A DNA stretch of 64,000 nt from Baylisascaris procyonis. Lineage: Eukaryota; Nematoda; Chromadorea; Rhabditida; Ascarididae. Positions 1-40,600 of the stretch are shown here, piece by piece. The first letter of the stretch is position 1. Each line of letters starts with the position of its first letter. The stretch lies in the NCBI GenBank assembly GCA_037389465.1, contig JAZARR010000031.1:107001-171000 (forward strand), written 5' to 3'. The position numbers and the translations under genes were made by a program. The notes beneath the pieces were generated by a model, which had not been told where the DNA came from, did not search any database, and worked only from the letters and a program-made list of their open reading frames with translations.

Positions 1-130
1 TTTCAATGTCGTCGATGGTGTGTTGTGTGTGGATATATGGCTGTCGAGAATTGAATTTTCGCCTTTTAAATTTTTTAAGCGTTTCGAAACGATTGTTGAT
101 TGCTGTCTATGACTAATGGTGAGGGTAACA

Positions 131-1097
131 TTAGCCACAAGCGCAGGCGCAAGAGAGAGAGACGGAGAGAGACCGCGCGCGTCTTCAGCGAGACGGAGAG
201 AGACCGCGCGCGTCTTCAGCGAGCGACGCGGCACTGGTCACTCTGAAATAAATCGTCGCAATAAATGTGAAAATATACAGTAAGGAAATGAGATTCGAAC
301 AACGAATTTCGACACATTCGAAAGAGCATTAAAAGCTCTATCAGAATCAAAAATAATCTCGGACAAAAACAAGAACTTTTCTATTAGATCGATCATTTAT
401 ATGACGTGCAAATGAGAAAAATTGCATGGTCATCGATAAATGAGGGCCTATAACTGTATAAAGGAACAAGATTTGGGAAGAGTGACTAGGTACATTCGAA
501 AGAGCATTAAAAGCTCTATCAGAATCAAAAATAATCTCGGACAAAAACAAGAACTTTTCTATTAGATCGATCATTTATATGACGTGCAAATGAGAAAAAT
601 TGCATGGTCATCGATAAATGAGGGCCTATAACTGTATAAAGGAACAAGATTTGGGAAGACTGACTAGGTACATTCGAAAGAACATTAAAAGCTCCATCAG
701 AATCAAAAATAATCTCGGACAAAAACAAGAACTTTTCTATTAGATCGAATTTTTATATGCAGTGCAATTGAGAAAAAATAGACGTGCTGACACGTAGAGG
801 CGATGGAAGAAAGAAATCGCTCGTTGAACTATGGAAATCCTATTACTGGTTCGAAGTGGCAGCCGCTGTCGTTTCTCAGCAGAATCGTCGGTCTCTGTCG
901 TTGAGGTGAAGGCAACATCTGGAATGTTAAATATAATGATGATCACGACGAAAGCATACTACATAAGTAATGCAAGTTTTGTATAGCTTGAAATAATAAC
1001 ATTAAAGATATAATTTTTTCTCTTTCTTAAATTTCGGTGTTTGGTGCTACTTCAACTGATAACTTATCGTGGAAAAAATCAGAGATGCGCAGTCTAT
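131..1097 (+). repeat. Left terminal inverted repeat of the foldback element
   Basis: This arm pairs with 3169-4254 in reverse orientation. From the outside inward it holds a purine/CG-rich end (GACGGAGAGAGACCGCGCGC at 161, repeated once about 30 bp further on), a unique stretch, then two full 178-bp units plus a partial third, a block shared with the right arm that includes a GATGATCACGACG motif near 938, and finally the 3' end of the OTU reading frame. Compared with the right arm it carries about 20 extra bases near 141-160 and an extra stretch of about 45 bp near 990-1035, which just precedes (in plus coordinates) the OTU stop codon. Confidence 0.88.
312..736 (+). repeat. 178-bp subterminal tandem repeat, left arm
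   Basis: Units starting CATTCGAAAGAGCATTAAAA recur at about 314, 492 and 670, a period of 178 bp. Two units are complete; the third breaks off after TCTATTAGATCGA. The units are almost identical, with single differences such as GAGCATT against GAACATT. Open frames of 67-75 codons inside them only mirror the repeat and are not genes. Confidence 0.9.
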
Positions 1098-2027
1098 GTT
1101 TGACGATAATGTAGGAAATATAGCCTGCCGAGCCGGATGTAGCTATTTCTTCGAAGTATCCTTGCCAGATTCCATTCATCTCATGGTACACGTAGATGTT
1201 CAAGTCGAAGCAAAGCGCTGCAGCCATTAAGTCGACGTCGTCTCCCCAACGCAGAGTATCCGCAGCGTTGAGAGCTATGTCCCGCTTCCATTGCAACATT
1301 TTGTCTACACTGTTATATGTGGCCGTGTTCGTGAACATCCCTGAAATCTACTCACACTCTGCCGATGTTAACTGCTGAATGTTACATGTTGCTACAAGGT
1401 TATAACGGTACTGGCACACTTTTAGCGCATCGTTTGGGAATTCCTCTGAAGTAATGAATTATTTTGTAACATTCAAAGGAATACCTATCCAAGGCTCAGT
1501 GTTTTTCGATACGGCAAAGGCGATGAGAACCGACCGCATTTCCTGGTGATAGTTTTCCGTTCCCGTGATGCAATAAGCGAGTGCTCTGAAAGACCAAAAT
1601 GAATTGCACGCCATCTAATGCCAGTGCCACATTTCTTTGTTAGAAGCCTTTCTTGCAGAAGTAGGGCTGCTTGGAAAGTCCTTAGCGTCCTAATGGCGCT
1701 GTGCAAAAATAGGCTGCCTATTTCTGAACACCTAGTACTGCACATGCCTTATGCAGTTAGCAAGCTTCCTTGTCAGTGGACTAAACTAATAGGTTGCAAT
1801 GTGCAATGTGCAAATTTTGTTGCGACAGTTTTCGCTTTTGGAGGGCTTCTAATGCGAGAATTTGTTTGCTGTGATACTGACCTGTAAAGACAGTTGCCAT
1901 CGCCTCTGACTGAAACCGTCGCCCATTTGTCCGGCTTCTGATTGACTAGGAACGAGCACGAGTCGGTGTATGCAGGACGGCTACCTTGTACGTGAGGCAT
2001 TGCTTCTTCCATACGTTGTTCAACCAT
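1027..2027 (-). CDS. OTU-like cysteine protease domain in the foldback element (three exons, 5' end unresolved)
   Basis: Three minus-strand exons join in phase: about 2027-1882, 1585-1485 and 1340-1027 (stop TAA at 1029-1027). The donors are GTCAGT and GTATTC; the acceptors are CTTTCAG and ATTTCAG. The first exon ends in GDGNCLYR, the D-G-N-C catalytic motif of OTU cysteine proteases. The second continues ALAYCITGTENYHQEMR, and the third has LRWGDDVDLMAAA and DLNIYVYHEMNG, typical of the OTU core. A His in YIIVKHRL is the candidate catalytic histidine. OTU proteases usually remove ubiquitin. What one does in a transposon is unknown; protecting the transposase or acting on host silencing factors is speculation. 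The upstream junction to the transposase exons is unclear because the OTU frame meets a stop just above 2027. It could be a separate gene or the 3' half of a transposase-OTU fusion. The last codons lie inside the left inverted repeat. Confidence 0.6.
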
Positions 2028-2028
2028 T

Positions 2029-3006
2029 CTAGACTAGGCGGCTCGAAACGAATGGTCTTGGTAGCCCCCATTTTTTTCCAATCTCCTCCACATCTTCATG
2101 TGATCTGGCTTCTTTGGTTGCAATTGCGCACTTCAAATGGCTGCTTGCATTGAAGGTTTCCTGCTTTGCAAGCACTTGCGGTTGCCTTCCAAGCGAAATG
2201 CAACATTTCTGCTGAGGAACATGCCGCCTTCGAGTTGCATTTTTGCTCTTCAGCCCTGACGGGTCCGTGTCGGAAAGCAAGTATTGCATGCGATCAAGGT
2301 ATGGCAATGCAATCAACCATGCATTCAGTGCGTCGGTTGGTTTCTTTACCATCAAGCGAATCTGCAAGGCCCATTATCGGTAGGTATGGGTAATCTCATT
2401 CAGCTCTCTATCAAGAACAATGTCATAAATGCACAAAAATAATGCATAAGACAAAACTAACTTGGTATTTTTGCATGTATTTCAGAAGGCGATAGTTGAG
2501 CCGGACATATTTCGGATTTCTTGGTTTCGTCTTCGCGCCCTCTGTCAATTGCTGTATGCGCGTTAAATACTCTGAATGACGGGAGTGAAGGAAGGCCAAA
2601 TATGCGCTGATCGTAGGATTGCGAGGAGCACGCCACTGCCTTAAAAATTTCTACATTATTGCTTCGTTGGCAAAATTGCAGCTTAACAGGCAATACTCAG
2701 AGAGGACTGTGGTAGATGAATTTCGAAAAACGCGCCTTGCTAGCACTGAGTGATATGCTTCCGCCGCATTTGTTGTGCGCAGATCTGAGCGTAGTGGTCC
2801 CACTTGTGAAACGGCAGTGAAAGCCAGTAGCTTTCGAAGTACCGCTTGAACGCGTTCAGTTCTTTACGAGGCCAACAGGTGAGCTTCGGTGGAGGAATCC
2901 AAGATTTGGGAGGTTGAGGTGGAATTTTTAGCGCCATCTCCCACTCGCAGAAGACGTGTTCTGCAAAGGACTTGCTGATGAGCCGCCACTGCTCAGATTT
3001 TGACAT
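2029..3006 (-). pseudogene. MULE-type transposase, C-terminal fragment, frameshifted
   Basis: Reading down from an ATG at 3006, one frame gives a hydrophilic stretch ending YFESYWLSLPFHKWDHY. A different frame then continues with LRTTNAAEAYHSVLARR (motif on 2747-2782). This is the RTTN...E..H signature of the C-terminal part of MULE/Phantom transposases, where a W..Y motif precedes RTTN. The change of frame near 2785-2800 therefore looks like a frameshift. A possible intron (GTTTTTCG donor at about 2732, acceptor AATGTAG) rejoins in phase to APRNPTISAYLAFLHSRH and TKPRNPKYVRLNYRLLKY, ending at a GTTAGT donor (exon low end 2462). A further exon from 2361 gives KPTDALNAWLIALPYLDR. The N-terminal FLYWCH and DDE regions are absent. 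The family match rests on remembered motifs. The exon structure is inferred, and the last exon (2029-2361) is the least certain. Confidence 0.6.
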
Positions 3007-3168
3007 AGTTCACCTAATAACATCAGCAACAGCACTGCAGCCTTCAGATACTTAGCACGTTGGCTCATTACACATTGCACACGAATCAAATTTTATTTCC
3101 CTCACATCAGCCTGTTATGCGCAACAAAAACAGTTAGACCACGAACTGCTGAGTGCAGGCGTCCACAA

Positions 3169-4254
3169 ATAGACTGCACATCTCTGATTTTTTCCAAGAT
3201 AAGCTATCAGTTGAAGTAGCACCAAACCTAATTCAAGCTATACAAAACTTGCATTACTTATGTAGTATGCTTTCGTCGTGATCATCATTATATTTAACAT
3301 TCCAGATGTTGCCTTCACCTCAACGACAGAGACCGACGATTCTGCTGAGAAACGACACCGGCTGCCACTTCGAACCAGTAATAGGATTTCCATAGTTCAA
3401 AGAGCGATTTCTTTCTTCCATCGCCTCTACGTGTCAGCACGTCTATTTTTTCTCAATTGCACTGCATATAAAAATTCGAACTAATAGAAAAGTTCTTGTT
3501 TTTGTCCGAGATTATTTTTGATTCTGATGGAGCTTTTAATGTTCTTTCGAATGTACCTAGTCAGTCTTCCCAAATCTTGTTCCTTTATACAGTTATAGGC
3601 CCTCATTTATCGATGACCATGCAATTTTTCTCATTTGCACGTCATATAAATGATCGATCTAATAGAAAAGTTCTTGTTTTTGTCCGAGATTATTTTTGAT
3701 TCTGATAGAGCTTTTAATGTTCTTTCGAATGTACCTAGTCACTCTCCCCAAATCTTGTTCCTTTATACAGTTATAGGCCCTCATTTATCGATGACCATGC
3801 AATTTTTCTCATTTGCACGTCATATAAATGATCGATCTAATAGAAAAGTTCTTGTTTTTGTCCGAGATTATTTTTGATTCTGATAGAGCTTTTAATGTTC
3901 TTTCGAATGTACCTAGTCACTCTCCCCAAATCTTGTTCCTTTATACAGTTATAGGCCCTCATTTATCGATGACCATGCAATTTTTCTCAATTGCACTGCA
4001 TATAAAAATTCGATCTAATAGAAAAGTTCTTGTTTTTGTCCGAGATTATTTTTGATTCTGATAGAGCTTTTAATGCTCTTTCGAATGTGCCGAAATTCGT
4101 TGTTCGAATCTCATTTCCTTACTGTATATTTTCACATTTATTGCGACGATTTATTTCAGAGTGACCAGTGCCGCGTCGCTCGCTGAAGACGCGCGCGGTC
4201 TCTCTCCGTCTCGCTGAAAACGCGCGCGGTCTCTCTCCGTCTCTTTTTGGCTAA
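3169..4254 (-). repeat. Right terminal inverted repeat of the foldback element
   Basis: This is the reverse-complement partner of 131-1097. It has one more 178-bp unit than the left arm (three full plus a partial). Its inner end (3169-3228) is an inverted, diverged copy of the last codons of the OTU reading frame, so the inverted repeat extends into coding sequence. The outer end again has the duplicated CGCGCGCGGTCTCTCTCCGT block (about 4188-4210 and 4221-4240). Confidence 0.88.
3479..4090 (-). repeat. 178-bp subterminal tandem repeat, right arm
   Basis: The 178-bp unit of the left arm in reverse orientation. The segment TAATAGAAAAGTTCTTG recurs at about 3482, 3660, 3838 and 4016, giving three full units and a partial one. 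The difference in copy number between arms (two against three) points to unequal exchange or slippage after the arms formed. Confidence 0.9.
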
Positions 4255-5924
4255 GTGCGCCGACCCCATGAGTAATATATGCCCGTTGTTTTTTGTTCTT
4301 CTCTATGATCATTGGTAGAAATTTCGAATTTTTTATAAGTAAGGGGGGGGAAGGTTTCAGGTAGTGTTTGACTTTGCCAGATGGAATGGAATATACTGGG
4401 GATCTCGTCCCACCTTCCACTGAAAATTATAAGAACCGATTCGAGAACGTCAGTTTGCGTAGTTCGTTGATTATCCTTCATGCATCAATCGTAAAATATG
4501 GCAATACAATTTCCACGTTTAATGTCGGAAAATAAGTGCATAGGGACATTTCAAGTAAATGGTGCAGCTGAAGGATTTAGGTGGAAGGTAGATAGAACGA
4601 AATAAAGCTTGTGCATTCGAGAGACGATCTCTTTATTTGCGAGGGACGAACAACAAAATGGTAGTTCCCTTTTTTCTGTTTTATTATAATGGGATCAGTT
4701 ATCAGGAGTTTTAAGCTGCTTTCGTACTGTTTAATATGCTTTTTGTTTTAGTGATTAATTCTTGTGAAGTGCTTTTCCTTCTAAAAAAGGCACTGTATTT
4801 TTGAAATTTATAGAAAAATTCAACTTTGTTCCAGGACGTTGTGGTACTTAAAAGACAGGAAGGGGGGGGGGGAGGGTGAATAAGCGACGGCAGAAATTGG
4901 AGAAATTCAAGAATGCTGTGTGAACTTTAGAACAGAAAACATTTGCGATATCAGTTTTTATTTTTTAAGAACGTCATATCGGCTTCATCTCTCAAATTCT
5001 ATAAGCATTTAATATCGCTTGTAAATCATCTCTCTGATGGTTTTGTATCTCTGCAACAATGAATTTTCTGTTGCAGTAGCGACGATTTCATTGTTTACTT
5101 TTGGTTTTCTAATTCTCAATGCTGATTTTTTGCCAACTCAAGCGTCAAGCTCTCTTTATTTACATGCTTCGTTATCCTCTTCTCTCTCTCTCTCTCTCTC
5201 TTTCTTCGTGATCTTCTCTCTTTCAGATTATTCCTGCATCTCTATTTGATAAACAGTTTAAATTGTTGCATTCTATGAGTGATATTGTAATGGAATGTTC
5301 TGTGAGTTATGCGACATTATCGTGGTGGCATTATTTGTAACGTAACCGGTTTTGAATTTCTAGCAGCTTCTCTTAGGACACTGCGAATGGGTGCTTTCAA
5401 CTGGTGTAAATATGCAATTAGATTGTTAACGAGGAGAGTTCTTAGAGTCGGACCTCACCATCCATTCTCCTTTCTTTTTTCTCCATCCATTCCCCCTCCC
5501 CTTCTAATTCCTAACATCCTAGCCTTCTCCTGCAAGAATGTTTTAGCGTTAACGAATAATAAGAGCTTTCATGCATTATGGTTTTCTTTGTTACTTCTTT
5601 CAGAATTTCTTAAATATTTCTTAAAATCACATATCATTTACGAGCTCAAGTATCGGAATCTGTTTACATGTTTCATTTCCTTTCTTTCTTTCTTTCTTTC
5701 TTTGTGGCCCTGCCGATTGGGTCCATCGCTGCTTCTTCTCCTTCTTAAATCAGAGATGTTGGGTACGTTGATGTGTTTATAGTATGTGCGTGCATGCAAG
5801 TTTTAGAATATTTTCATGCTCGTTGAATAGTTTGCCATTATTCAGTTTATTTTCACCAAAATTATGCATCTATGAGCATTGGATTGTGGTTGTTGATTTC
5901 GAGTCGTAACATCGTGATGTGGTA
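4255..5924. other. Intergenic stretch between transposon and aconitase gene
   Basis: I see no gene here. The stretch holds G-runs (about 4344-4352 and 4862-4873), a CT microsatellite (5179-5204) and a TTTC run (5683-5702). It must include the aconitase promoter and 5' UTR, but I cannot place a transcription start. An in-frame TAA at 5907-5909 bounds the aconitase reading frame. Confidence 0.6.
5179..5204. repeat. CT microsatellite
   Basis: An uninterrupted run of TC dinucleotides (TCTCTCTCTC...) about 740 bp upstream of the aconitase start codon. A TTTC run follows at about 5683-5702. Confidence 0.85.
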
Positions 5925-21479
<15,555 letters not shown>

Positions 21480-34600: not shown

Positions 34601-37600
34601 ACACACAGACTGCAACACAATGACCAATGACCAATGAGCAATAAAATGATGACCATGTTATGTAGCAGCTAAATCTTTCGTTTGTGAGGGTTTGGGACGT
34701 GAATATGCAGAAGAGAGGAGGTGGACGACGATATTTCGGTAGCGTCAATGGCACGAAATCCAGAAACCCTGCGCACATCTACGTAGTGCAACGCTAAGCT
34801 GTCTAGCACCGGATATTGGTTGCGCAACGGAGACTTTCATGGGTTTTCCTTTCAATTTTGTTAACAACGTATCAATTTTTGCAAGGTTCGTTTCCTTTTT
34901 CAAGTAAGATTATTTGCTGTTTAGCAGCAAAGTTCACCTTGAGTGCATTTGAAAGAGTAAAAGAATTTTGCACAAATTGAGGACCCTCTCACCTCTCCTC
35001 CTCTTGCCACCCCTCCTTTTCCACGCAAAAATCTGATGAAGTATTTCTTGTTGCTTTGCAAATGCTACATATGCAGTGCCCATTCGAATGCAAAGAGCCC
35101 GCTTTACATACTCACTCGTGACGTCAATCAAGCAGTTAAATAAAATAAATCAAATAGATGTGCACGTACCATTTTTGTGTGGTATATTCCCACCACTCAA
35201 GTCGGCAACTTGTCGCTCAAGCGCGGCAATCCTCTGACGCAACTCATCGATGACAGCATCTTTGTGCCGAAGTTCACGCTGCAATCGACGATTCTGCATC
35301 TCGATATCACTGCAATAAATTTAGCTTCAACTCTATTGCACCGAAATATATGCATATAAGTCTAAGAGTATAAAGCCAACGGAAAACATAAGATGGATGT
35401 CATATGTAAATGATTAAAGCAAGTGAAACATGGCGGAATGTATCGCGACCTGAGGTAGCTCTACGGCGATGTCGAGAAGAAGAATTTTCAACACCCAAGG
35501 TGCGCATATAAACCAATGTGTTCCATCCTATCGTACACACCATGGGCGCAATATATGCACAAGGAGGTGCCTAGTTATAAGACATATGTTATGACTACCT
35601 CACATTATCCTTTTCCCTTTTTTTCCTGAAAGGTGTTTCAGACATTTTCTACTGTAATTGTGGTCGAACTGAGGAATCGGAAAGAGCAACTACATTTCAA
35701 GTATATTCCAAAAAAGTAATTCTATTTCAGCAAAAAAGTATCAGTCATTAAGGAGAGAAATGAATAAAATGACGAAAACCAGCGATGCAAAAATGTTCCA
35801 TAATGAATGTGATAAACTAAACGATACGAATCGACAACTTTGTTTTGCTTTTTTTTGCATAGAAAATTGCAAACATTGCTTCAGACAAAACTGATCATTT
35901 CAGACAGAAACCTACAAATATCCCAAAAAAGTTTCTGAAATAATTACGTTGAAGATGAGCGATTTTCCTTGTCAGCAAGCAGTAACGACATCTTCTCGTC
36001 AAGTTGAGAATTCTCGAGGCATTTTGCAGAATACAGCGCCGATAATTGTGCCAATTCGGCACTCATCTCTTCCAACAATTTACTGAAATATATTTAGCAC
36101 TTTATTTACAATTCAAATATAACCTCTTGAGATTAATAAAAGCAAAATAATATTTATTAATTCAATATGTTACAAGGTGGTTATGCTCATATATTCGAAC
36201 ACCCCTAACAAAATATTCATCGAATATCTTCACTACTCAAATGTTTGTAAAATTCGTATAGGTTATATTGACTAACTTTAAACACAATCTACCTAATAAA
36301 TAAAATACTAAATATATTATAGAACGTTGTGAACGAATGGAGATGATAGATGATTCACAGAGATACTAGTAAGATGCTTATTATGGCACTAGATACTAAT
36401 TAACTATGCACGCATCACTGCAATTTTCGAAAGCAAGACTTTGTCTATACATAAATGATTAACCTTTTGTTGTGGTGAACAACCGCGCTACGACTTAATT
36501 TGCATAAATCACCCTCAGTGACATCTGTTCTTCTCTGTTCTATTATATTGTGCCTTTTCTCTGGTTGTCTGCGTGTTCCAACCCGTTCGCTGTTATATGC
36601 GTTGACTCTGATATATTGGTGGTTTTTCGTATTCCTCAGTTCAGTCAACTGGTTCAGTTACCCGGTGCGGTTTGGTGCACCGTTTCAGTCATTCGACAAT
36701 AAATCTTCAACTGCTCGCCTCGTCCGCACGGCAGCAACACAACAGTGGCGATCAGGATCCGAACAGCAGGGACCGACAGCAGGATTTGAACAGCAGGATT
36801 CGAGCAGCAAGAATCGACAGCAGTATTCGAGCAGCAAGGATCAACAGCAATGAACAGGGACCAGCGATCGTCAGCAACGATCGACAGCGAAGCTCTTCGA
36901 GCAATACTCGACGCTCAAGAGGAACGGCAGCAACGAACGCTCGCAGCCATCCTGGAGTTGGCGGATCGGCAGCAGCAGGCGCTATTGGAGCGAGTGGAAT
37001 GGATGCTGACCGCTATCGGACCCACTGCTCCCCCTGCATCGACTGCTGAGTTTGTCACAAACTCGCTGTCGACACGACTGCCGGAGTTCGCTTACGATCC
37101 AGACAATGGCGGCACGTTCGACTTGTGGTTCAACAGATACGAAGACGTCATTTCGAAAGACGGAGCGGCACTTGATGACGCCGCGCGGGCCCGTCTCATT
37201 GTTTCGAAGCTCGACGCCAGTACGTATGCCCGCTTCACCAACCACATTCTGCCAGGGAGAGCCTCCGAAGTCTCCTTCGAAGACACCGTCAAGACACTGA
37301 AAGAACTGTTCGGGCACAACACCTCAGTTTTTTCCGGTCGCTACATCTACCTCAGAACTCCGCGCAACGGCGAATTTCTCAACGACTATACGGGAATTGT
37401 TAATCGACGTCACGAGATGGCCGAATTCAACGCCATCACGCCGGAACAGATGAAGTGTCTAGTGTGGATCTGCGGCCTCCACACTCCAGGAGACGCTGAC
37501 ATTCGTGCTCGCGCTCTACGCAAAATGGAGGACAACCCACAAGCGACACTCAAAGAACTCACTACCGAGATCCAGCAGTTTTTAAGCATCAGACAGGATG

Positions 37601-40600
37601 CCAGGCCCCTGGACAGTCCTTCACCATCGCTCCAACCAGAAATCAATGCCGTCAGCACCAAGAAGAAGCGCACACAGAACCCGCCTTCACCATGTTTCCG
37701 TTGTGGCAGTCTACACTGGGCCAAAGACTGCAACTTCCTCAACAAAGCGTGCCATGATTGCAAACTCATCAGTCATAAGAAAGGCTTCTGCAAGAACTTC
37801 ACCAAGAAGAAGAGGCAGAATTCGAAGAAGAAGCGAAGAAAGGCGAACAACGTCGCAGTTATTGCCTCCACTATGGCAGACACCGCGCCAATCAACCGCA
37901 TTTACCGGCAAGTCCAGATCAACGGCGTTACAGTTAAAATGCGCCTCGACACTGGAGCCGACGTCACTTTACTCAGCGTCAAGGATTGGATCGCGCTCAA
38001 TCGTCCGAAATTGCGTCCACCATTTTTCAAACTGAAGTCCGCCAACAACAAAAATATCAAGGTTCGAGGATATTTTGAGTGCGATTTCGAAATCGATGGA
38101 TACAAGGGAAGAGGAAACGGCCACGTCGTGGATATCCAGTCACTTCTTGGCGTCGACTGGATAGCCCAAAATGAATCCCTCTTCCGAAGCCTCAAAGAAG
38201 GTGTCATCTGCGATGTGTCGGCCACGACACTAAACCATCTCCGCTCTACGCTCATTGCAAGTCCACAGAAGCAGTTCTCTACAGTATTCAAGCCAGGACT
38301 GGGACGCTGCACCAAGTCTAAGGCGCACCTTACATTGAAGCCGGACGCAAAGTCTATTTTCCGAAAAAGCCGCCCTGTTCCGTATGCTGCTCAATCTCGC
38401 ATCTCACAGGAGATCGACCATCTGCTGGCTGCAGATGTGCTGTCCCCCACCAATCACGGAATTACGCATCTACGCTCCCCTCCGTTCCACCCGCAAAGCA
38501 ATGGTCAGGCAGGACGCTTTGTGGATACGTTCAAGCGTGCACTCCTCAACTTGAAGGGGGAGGAACCGACGGTCGATGCACTACAGACCTCTCTGATGGC
38601 ATACCGGTCGACGCCTTGTCCGTCTGGACCGGATCACTTATCGCCCGCAGAAAACTTCTTGGGACGCCAAACGCGTACCATTCTCGATCTGATGATGCCG
38701 CAGACCGATATTGTCAAATGACCACGCGATATTAAAATGGAAGAGCAGTTCAATCGTCACCACGGTGCTCGTCGCCGCCACTTCAAGGTCGGGATGCCGT
38801 TTACGCCAAAGATTATCGAGGACCGAAAAGTACCTGGATACCTGGCACCGTCGCACGCAACTTTGGCAACGCGACCTATTCTGTGCGTTGCGGAAACTTT
38901 CTTTGGACACATCACATCAACCAGCTACGACCGCGCACAAAGACGCCGACTCTCGGTCAATTACTGGACGTATTCGACCTGCCGCTGTTCAACTCTGACA
39001 CCAGCGTCGCAAATCCAGTACCAGGGTCTCCTACGCCGTTGGTATGCCTCCGTCGCTCAACGCGTGTTCGCCGCGCTCCCACTCGTCTTCATATGGATCC
39101 CACAAAGACGACGTACCGTTCGTAACTCGAAAGAGGAGGTGTTGTGGTGAACAACCGCGCTACGACTTAATTTGCATAAATCACCCTCAGTGATATCTGT
39201 TCTTCTCTGTTCTATTATATTGTGCCTTTTCTCTGGTTGTCTGCGTGTTCCAACCCGTTCGCTGTTATATGCGTTGACTCTGATATATTGGTGGTTTTTC
39301 GTATTCCTCGGTTCAGTCAACTGGTTCAGTTACCCGGTACGGTTTGTGTTAACGAGCGATCTGGTAACGAGTGATACTGTGATCTGCATTTGTGTAATGC
39401 GCCGTGTGCTCACGCTTGTTTGATCTTAACGTAATATCTCCCCATGTGTGTTGCGATTTCGCCATACGTTCAGGGCCGCAGCCGATGCTATAAATAGGCT
39501 GTGGTCTTGCTCACGGCAGTTGTTGTGTTGCGCTACTCGAGTTGTGTTGACGTCATAAAGGCGTTGTGTTGAACTCCCCTGGTGCCACGTTCTGAATGCC
39601 CCAACACGGTCGCAGTTTGGTGCACCGTTTCAGTCATTCGACAATAAATCTTCAACTGCTCGCCTCGTCCGCACGGCAGCAACACAACACCTTTTGTTAG
39701 ATAAACTTTAAAAGGTTCGGTGAAAATTAAAATTAAATCGACACTTATTTACGAAGGGGCTCGATGATATTAAAGAGGAAGAGGCATTTTACTAACACGA
39801 TCATTCAACTTATACAAAATCTAGTAAAAAAGAAACATCATTGCTCAAGCATCGATTCTATTTCAAATAGCAATAAAAGATTTTAGTGACGAAGATGAAG
39901 AGTCAAAAAGGAGACCAATCAGGAGGGAAACACATCCAAACAAGAACCTATAATAACTATGGGACTATTCATATCAATTCTAAAAATATGATAATTTTGC
40001 TGACTGGATAAACTCAAAGAATTTTTATTTTTTTTTATTATATTCCTCAACATCGCCTATTATGCATCAAAAATAAGTAAATAGGTTAAACTGATTTTTT
40101 TTCTTTCGTAGTGGATGACCTGTATTATTATTGCCATAAAAGTATGACAAAATGCCATCTAAAGATCGAAAGCAAAAATTCTACGAGAAATAATATTTAC
40201 AATGCAATGCTTGTTCTATGGAAAAAAATTGAAAAGATATGCATGAGTGAAGGAATGTTGTTACAACGAAGTCGTAATAATTTACTCCTAAATACCCTCA
40301 TTGTGTCTACGCTATTCAATCCAATCAATCATCATATAAAAACAGCCGGCTGGCAGCATTCTATCAGAAGTGGCAAAAAATAATAATAGCACAGGGTACG
40401 GAAGAATTGTGAGCCCATTAACATAGACCTGTCCATCACATATGTATCACCGACGAATTTTTAAAGATAAAGGCCATCACACAACTTCTCACGTTCGGGA
40501 AATTTTAAGCTATAGTGGCGTTCATATTCTAAAGCATCGTGTTATTACCGACAACAAATAATTGAATAATGATGCAAGTAAAGACAATAAGGATGTAAGG

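Follow-up and report, generated by a model that had tools for sequence, protein, structure and literature searches.

The first 4.3 kb of a 64,000-nucleotide stretch of the Baylisascaris procyonis genome (assembly GCA_037389465.1, contig JAZARR010000031.1, forward-strand positions 107,001 to 171,000; referred to as the window) contain one complete copy of a transposon, in which part of a Mutator-like element (MULE) transposase gene is followed by an OTU domain. Comparison of copies placed this element at positions 118-4267 (4,150 bp). Its true ends were set by aligning the termini of 17 copies, which corrected the borders 131-4254 of an initial annotation made from the sequence alone. End A begins at base 118 (GGTGAGGG) and end B finishes at base 4267 (..CCGACCCC); across the 17 copies the two termini were unlike each other (A, GGTGAGGG..; B, GGGGTCGG..). 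The two flanks of the window copy form a 9-bp target duplication that differs at one base, with ATGACTAAT on the left (109..117; 8/9 bases match the right flank) and ATGAGTAAT on the right (4268..4276). Duplications of 8-9 bp fall within the range of about 8-11 bp that is typical of Mutator elements and MULEs.

The element has a foldback-type structure, with long inverted arms built of tandem units. These arms, of about 1 kb each, enclose 2.2 kb and pair at 97% identity (158-777 with 3625-4244) and 99% identity (314-995 with 3229-3910). In each arm, short 31-bp units near the tip are followed by 178-bp tandem units (2.6 and 3.6 copies). The left arm (118..1026) comprises terminus A (GGTGAGGGTAACATTAGCCA), 31-bp units at 159-223, 178-bp units at 314-777 and a unique inner part. 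The right arm (3229..4267) contains 178-bp units at 3447-4088 and terminus B (GGGGTCGGCGCACTTAGCCA, read inward), with a further inner copy at 3164-3227.

Inside the arms, the minus strand encodes, in this order, a transposase fragment, then a linker and finally an OTU domain split over three exons. The transposase fragment (2654..3006, minus strand) contains the motif RTTNAAEAYHS with the third acidic residue of the catalytic site and, in the window copy, a frameshift near 2790. The C-terminal part of the transposase (ISAYLAFLHSRH..KYMQKYQ; 2462..2650, minus strand) lies beyond a TAG codon that is common to the copies. The linker between transposase and OTU (2000..2361, minus strand) is continuous with OTU exon 1 in a sister copy (L033), where a single open frame of 200 codons covers both; linker and OTU therefore look like one gene. 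The OTU domain itself is encoded by exon 1 with the active-site motif GDGNCLYR (1882..2027), exon 2 (ALAYCITGTENYHQEMRSVLIAFA; 1485..1585) and exon 3 with the WGDDVDLMAAALCFDLNIYVY core and a candidate catalytic His in FFHDKLSVEV (1027..1340), all on the minus strand. The 3' end of exon 3 runs into the inner arm, where 1039-1102 pairs with 3164-3227. Both the foldback ends and the TTNAAEAYHS transposase signature upstream of the OTU on the same strand had been recognized in the initial annotation, and both were borne out.

The three joined exons, as delimited in that annotation, matched Pfam family PF02338 above its cut-off (E=3.3e-8; 34.5 bits versus 23.3; profile positions 1-100 of 128), in agreement with the proposed OTU identity. 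Asp and Cys of the active site (DGNC) were clear in the window copy, and the GT/AG splice sites of the two introns were kept in 18, 19, 18, and 18 of 19 aligned copies. Among solved structures, the best match lay around the active-site motif (best E=5.6e-4). With the OTU alone as query, none of 156 candidate proteins, whose length was restricted to 0.55-1.75 times that of the query, was a homologue at E<=0.001.

Searches of the 272.8-Mb genome assembly, in which only the best candidates were scored and counts are therefore lower bounds, showed that the OTU domain and the transposase fragment occur together in a repeated unit. The OTU protein query gave at least 21 matches at 186 bits or more, while the transposase fragment was found at at least 21 places (20 in one piece and one, on contig C93, in two). 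Comparison of the two lists placed an OTU match downstream of all 21 transposase-fragment places, on the same strand and within about 1.5 kb. Arm sequence was present on both sides in 19 of the 20 loci that were fetched, with the left arm missing from locus L048. Target duplications (8 or 9 bases with no more than one mismatch, each flank being free to shift by one base) were found in 9/16 two-ended copies versus 1/240 cross-paired flanks of different copies; loci L036, L043, L044, and L048, in which an end was missing or unclear, were omitted from this comparison. A chance arrangement or an assembly artefact was ruled out by the 21 places, the target duplications and the relatives outside this genome described below. 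A more distant transposase match (G000:C219:1560993-1561384, 44% identity) had no OTU match listed nearby and could represent an OTU-less relative.

Longer copies of the element were identified with the MULE profile (PF10551), which gave four matches in the whole genome, all above its cut-off. All four lay upstream of OTU sequence of this family on the same strand (OTU matches at C270:670817-671793, C270:704747-704938, C134:271787-273922, and C167:201437-201610). One long copy (C270:666407-672487; 6,081 bp) is bounded by ends A and B and flanked by a perfect 9-bp duplication (CAATGATGA); it contains between its ends, in one direction, an RYYR-CCHC domain, the MULE domain, TTNAAEAYHS, the linker and the OTU domain. 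Its MULE piece matched PF10551 with E=1.3e-9; the N-terminal piece matched PF23674 (RYYR-CCHC) with E=6.7e-19 when scored on the C134 copy, to which the C270 copy is 97.5% identical. The long copies possess all three MULE catalytic residues, with the first Asp in ADATFSTA, the second in RTDYEEA and the Glu in TTNAAEAYHS. In the C134 copy, RYYR-CCHC, MULE and OTU are present, with the C-terminal part of the transposase and much of the linker replaced by other sequence; the C167 copy (L056) retains RYYR-CCHC and MULE, but its linker and the greater part of its OTU are gone. The remaining MULE match belongs to a copy at C270:705415.

The C270 long copy ruled out a location of the OTU outside the element and confirmed its placement between the two ends. 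Same-strand linkage, this long copy with both ends and the MULE-OTU relatives described below together indicate that the OTU belongs to the element. Joining of a transposase fragment to an OTU, as initially described, holds for the window copy and is an understatement for the family, since longer copies add an upstream MULE DDE domain. Such copies had been expected to combine this DDE region with an N-terminal FLYWCH domain; the MULE DDE was found, while the N-terminal piece instead matched RYYR-CCHC, with no FLYWCH match listed for it in a Pfam search at E up to 10. The Phantom group of elements was reportedly treated by Marquez and Pritham in 2010. Absence of FLYWCH lowers the probability of Phantom membership without excluding it, because Phantoms may be without this domain, as stated in a passage of a 2019 MULE survey (PMC6446971). 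Membership of Ginger1 was rejected, as the catalytic piece matched MULE and no integrase profile was listed for it.

Related proteins were detected outside this genome. The only protein found with the joined C-terminal half as query was P0001 from Ascaris lumbricoides (54% identity over 19% of the query). Five proteins (P0002-P0006) were found when residues 20-420 of a composite query were used instead. P0002, also from Ascaris lumbricoides, was 62% identical over 36% of the composite query and had a weak MULE match. Panagrellus redivivus is a free-living nematode, and its proteins A0A7E4ZWQ5 (P0004) and A0A7E4VQZ5 (P0005), as well as P0003, showed a MULE match followed by a C-terminal OTU match. 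P0004 and P0005 are named 'OTU domain-containing protein' in UniRef and were 28-33% identical to the composite query. In an alignment of P0003-P0005, in which identity to P0003 was 24-25%, the catalytic positions of the transposase (D321, D392, and E510) and of the OTU (D719, C722, and H841) were invariant across the three predicted sequences. P0004 and P0005 were 54% identical in the OTU, 51% in the MULE region and 30% in the spacer. In single comparisons, the window OTU aligned with P0005 (E=4e-14) and P0003 (E=1e-9). The OTU D, C, and H columns are common to the window copy and the three proteins, with the candidate His of the element aligning to the invariant His. In addition, LLSDTDPSG in the linker of the element resembles, by eye, LLSDVDVTG in P0003. 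Retention of two active sites in the same order argues for a single old MULE-OTU fusion that would have been under selection. An AlphaFold model of P0003, based on the three-row alignment, had a mean predicted local distance difference test score (pLDDT) of 38 and was not used. The fifth protein (P0006; 537 amino acids) gave N-terminal FLYWCH, MULE and C-terminal RING-type matches, all below the Pfam cut-offs, and is possibly a transposase joined to a domain of the ubiquitin-ligase type.

The copies with transposase fragments are closely related to one another. Core divergence between copies averaged 2.0%, with a maximum of 3.1%. The TAG after NEAIM was common to 19/19 aligned copies. The window copy has its frameshift just ahead of TTNAAE, and a break at the same place occurs in three other copies, including the long C270 copy. 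The N-terminal region and the first two catalytic regions are missing from the window copy, only the last part of MULE remains, and the window transposase pieces alone gave no Pfam match above cut-off. Missing regions, frameshift and TAG ruled out a working transposase in this copy, which, as judged from its sequence, is dead, non-autonomous and internally deleted. Ratios of non-synonymous to synonymous differences per site (pN/pS), calculated over 19 copies and with no correction for transition bias, were highest in the OTU (0.95) and lower in the transposase part (0.67) and the linker (0.65); individual OTU exons, with few changes each, gave 1.55, 3.79, and 0.64. The coding parts thus appear to be near neutral among copies, with no clear selection. 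The spliced OTU frame was open in 14/19 aligned copies, and the window copy is one of the five in which it was not, having no stop and a length two bases off.

Based on these results, the window element is likely to be a non-autonomous, internally deleted nematode MULE with foldback-type ends, whose parent would have encoded a fusion of RYYR-CCHC, MULE DDE, linker and OTU. In the product of this parent gene, RYYR-CCHC would be N-terminal and followed by the catalytic MULE DDE domain, which the linker would connect to a C-terminal OTU domain of the cysteine protease type. The RYYR-CCHC domain, probably DNA-binding, would help to bind the ends of the element. In MULEs, the DDE domain cuts at the ends and insertion is staggered by 8-9 bp; the parent protein would excise the element at its inverted ends and reinsert it with an 8-9 bp target duplication. 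The tethered OTU could strip ubiquitin, or a tag resembling it, from the transposase; alternatively, its substrates could be host proteins present where transposition takes place, for example repair or chromatin factors. The initial annotation had suggested that such a deubiquitinase might shield the transposase from turnover or counteract host silencing. No working transposase would be made from the window copy, which would have moved, if at all, in trans.

Several observations weigh against such a parent. No intact parent gene was present in the copies that were read, and the long C270 copy, too, has the stop after NEAIM and the frameshift. Pfam searches gave no OTU match in the two MULE predictions of Ascaris lumbricoides (P0001 and P0002). 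In P0003-P0005, the OTU matches were all below cut-off (14.4, 18.9, and 20.4 bits versus 23.3); MULE was over its cut-off in P0004 and P0005 and below it in P0003, and for RYYR-CCHC P0005 alone exceeded the cut-off, P0004 gave a weak match and none was listed for P0003. The OTU of P0003 was 18 and 26% identical to those of the other two proteins, which is less than the 36% of its MULE region. The OTU pN/pS given above shows no sign of selection among the 19 copies. Finally, the OTU of this element family has Asp where an aromatic residue would follow the candidate His, and the PF02338 profile match ends ahead of this His.

The two features of the His region would fit an OTU that is no working protease and was retained as a binding or structural module, such as a ubiquitin-binding pseudo-enzyme. 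Presence of D, C, and H in the window copy as well as in the three relatives speaks against this explanation, which we consider unlikely. The lack of a selection signal among copies and the two Ascaris predictions devoid of an OTU match are, in turn, what would be expected if a host gene fragment had been captured by chance, in the manner of Pack-MULEs and with no role in transposition; MULEs tend to pick up host gene fragments, according to a passage in PMC6446971. Chance capture would have to accommodate the same MULE-OTU order in Panagrellus and in P0003 with catalytic residues invariant at such low identity, the resembling linker in P0003, the common open frame of linker and OTU exon 1 in L033, and OTU sequence beside each of the four MULE-profile matches, which together make it very improbable. 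Least probable of all is that deletion derivatives, as stand-alone deubiquitinase carriers, were kept for a free OTU acting in trans, for example by stabilizing transposase made elsewhere: the OTU frame is open in most copies and the transposase is stopped in all of them, but the OTU ratio of 0.95 versus 0.67 for the dead transposase indicates no purifying selection on the OTU, open frames in 14/19 copies may be due to chance at about 2% divergence, and shorter derivatives without most of the OTU are common.

The element family described here is closest in structure to Tm1 of Meloidogyne, a Phantom/Mutator element with foldback ends, and closest in idea to Ginger1, followed by Ulp1-bearing MULEs and Helentrons. 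According to parts of the Tm1 paper (PMC3169594), Tm1 likewise belongs to the nematode MULEs and has arms composed of tandem units, many non-autonomous copies, two unlike terminal motifs (A1/A2, compared to A/B in the window family) and target duplications of 8-10 bp. It differs in its shorter arm units (13-15 bp, compared to 178 bp) and in its 496-amino-acid transposase, which is FLYWCH-MULE, the N-terminal domain in the window family being RYYR-CCHC; the main text of that paper does not mention OTU or protease. In Ginger1 elements, a DDE transposase likewise carries a protease domain, OTU or Ulp1, at its C terminus, although this transposase resembles Gypsy integrase rather than MULE, and those with an OTU are tabled from Hydra, Aplysia, and aphid; the same paper offers a comparable guess, with repair factors as possible targets of the OTU and Ulp1 domains (PMC2836005). 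MULEs of hydra, lancelet and plants, as cited in part of PMC2836005, also encode a protease against a ubiquitin-like tag, which is Ulp1 rather than OTU. Helentrons have an OTU-like cysteine protease as an additional open reading frame, but are rolling-circle elements with Rep/helicase (PMC4067079, in part). The Panagrellus proteins P0004 and P0005 share the order RYYR-CCHC, MULE, linker and OTU in one protein, at the low identity to the composite query noted above.

The main text of the 2019 MULE survey, which includes a Trichinella element, does not mention OTU, protease or peptidase (PMC6446971), and no MULE-OTU element was found in open-licence PMC literature, a scope that leaves aside Repbase and subscription papers. 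While OTU in Ginger1 and Helentrons and Ulp1 in MULEs were already known, pairing of OTU with a MULE transposase was thus not found described. Proteases against ubiquitin or ubiquitin-like tags have been reported in unrelated types of mobile DNA (Ginger1, MULE, and Helentron), to which a nematode MULE-OTU whose two active sites are conserved in distant relatives would add one more pairing. Nematodes may even harbour an old MULE lineage whose single-polypeptide transposase carries a working C-terminal OTU deubiquitinase that arose independently of the OTU of Ginger1 and Helentrons and of the Ulp1 of other MULEs, a proposal that we make tentatively and with more reserve than conviction. If true, tag removal at the transposition site would be something that eukaryotic DNA transposons require and have invented repeatedly. 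The old guess that tag removal aids transposition becomes testable with defined Cys mutants, and long relatives are present in Panagrellus redivivus.

The orientation of the inside of the element relative to its two unlike ends varied between copies. In 17 copies of the L033-L052 set (L036, L044, and L048 were not used), the coding part was located behind end A in nine and behind end B in eight. On a tree of the core, at least six changes of orientation were needed, four of which were forced by well-supported branches, and the orientation label was unclustered (363 and 326 of 500 shuffles were as low). In L037 and L041, the cores are almost identical but their orientation is opposite. The inside was probably flipped repeatedly by recombination between the inverted arms, which is the simplest reading of these flips; conversion of the short tips is an alternative explanation for the opposite orientations.

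The arm query alone gave at least 105 matches, many of them closely spaced inverted pairs, and many short derivatives retain just the OTU end (for example L038). Among these, much shorter palindromic derivatives that retain, on both sides, no more of the OTU exon than its last part were common (L038:1-3554; G000:C156:50277-51098).

Elsewhere in the window, an open frame of 643 amino acids (36790-38721, plus strand) showed matches to DUF7083 and an aspartyl protease and weak integrase matches, with no reverse transcriptase match listed; it is recorded as an observation only and may be the remnant of a retroelement of the long-terminal-repeat type. Rfam gave no match in the window. Two adjacent tandem arrays at 8850-9253, with units of 44 bp and 70 bp, have the word GTGATATGCAGTATTCGTTCA in common.

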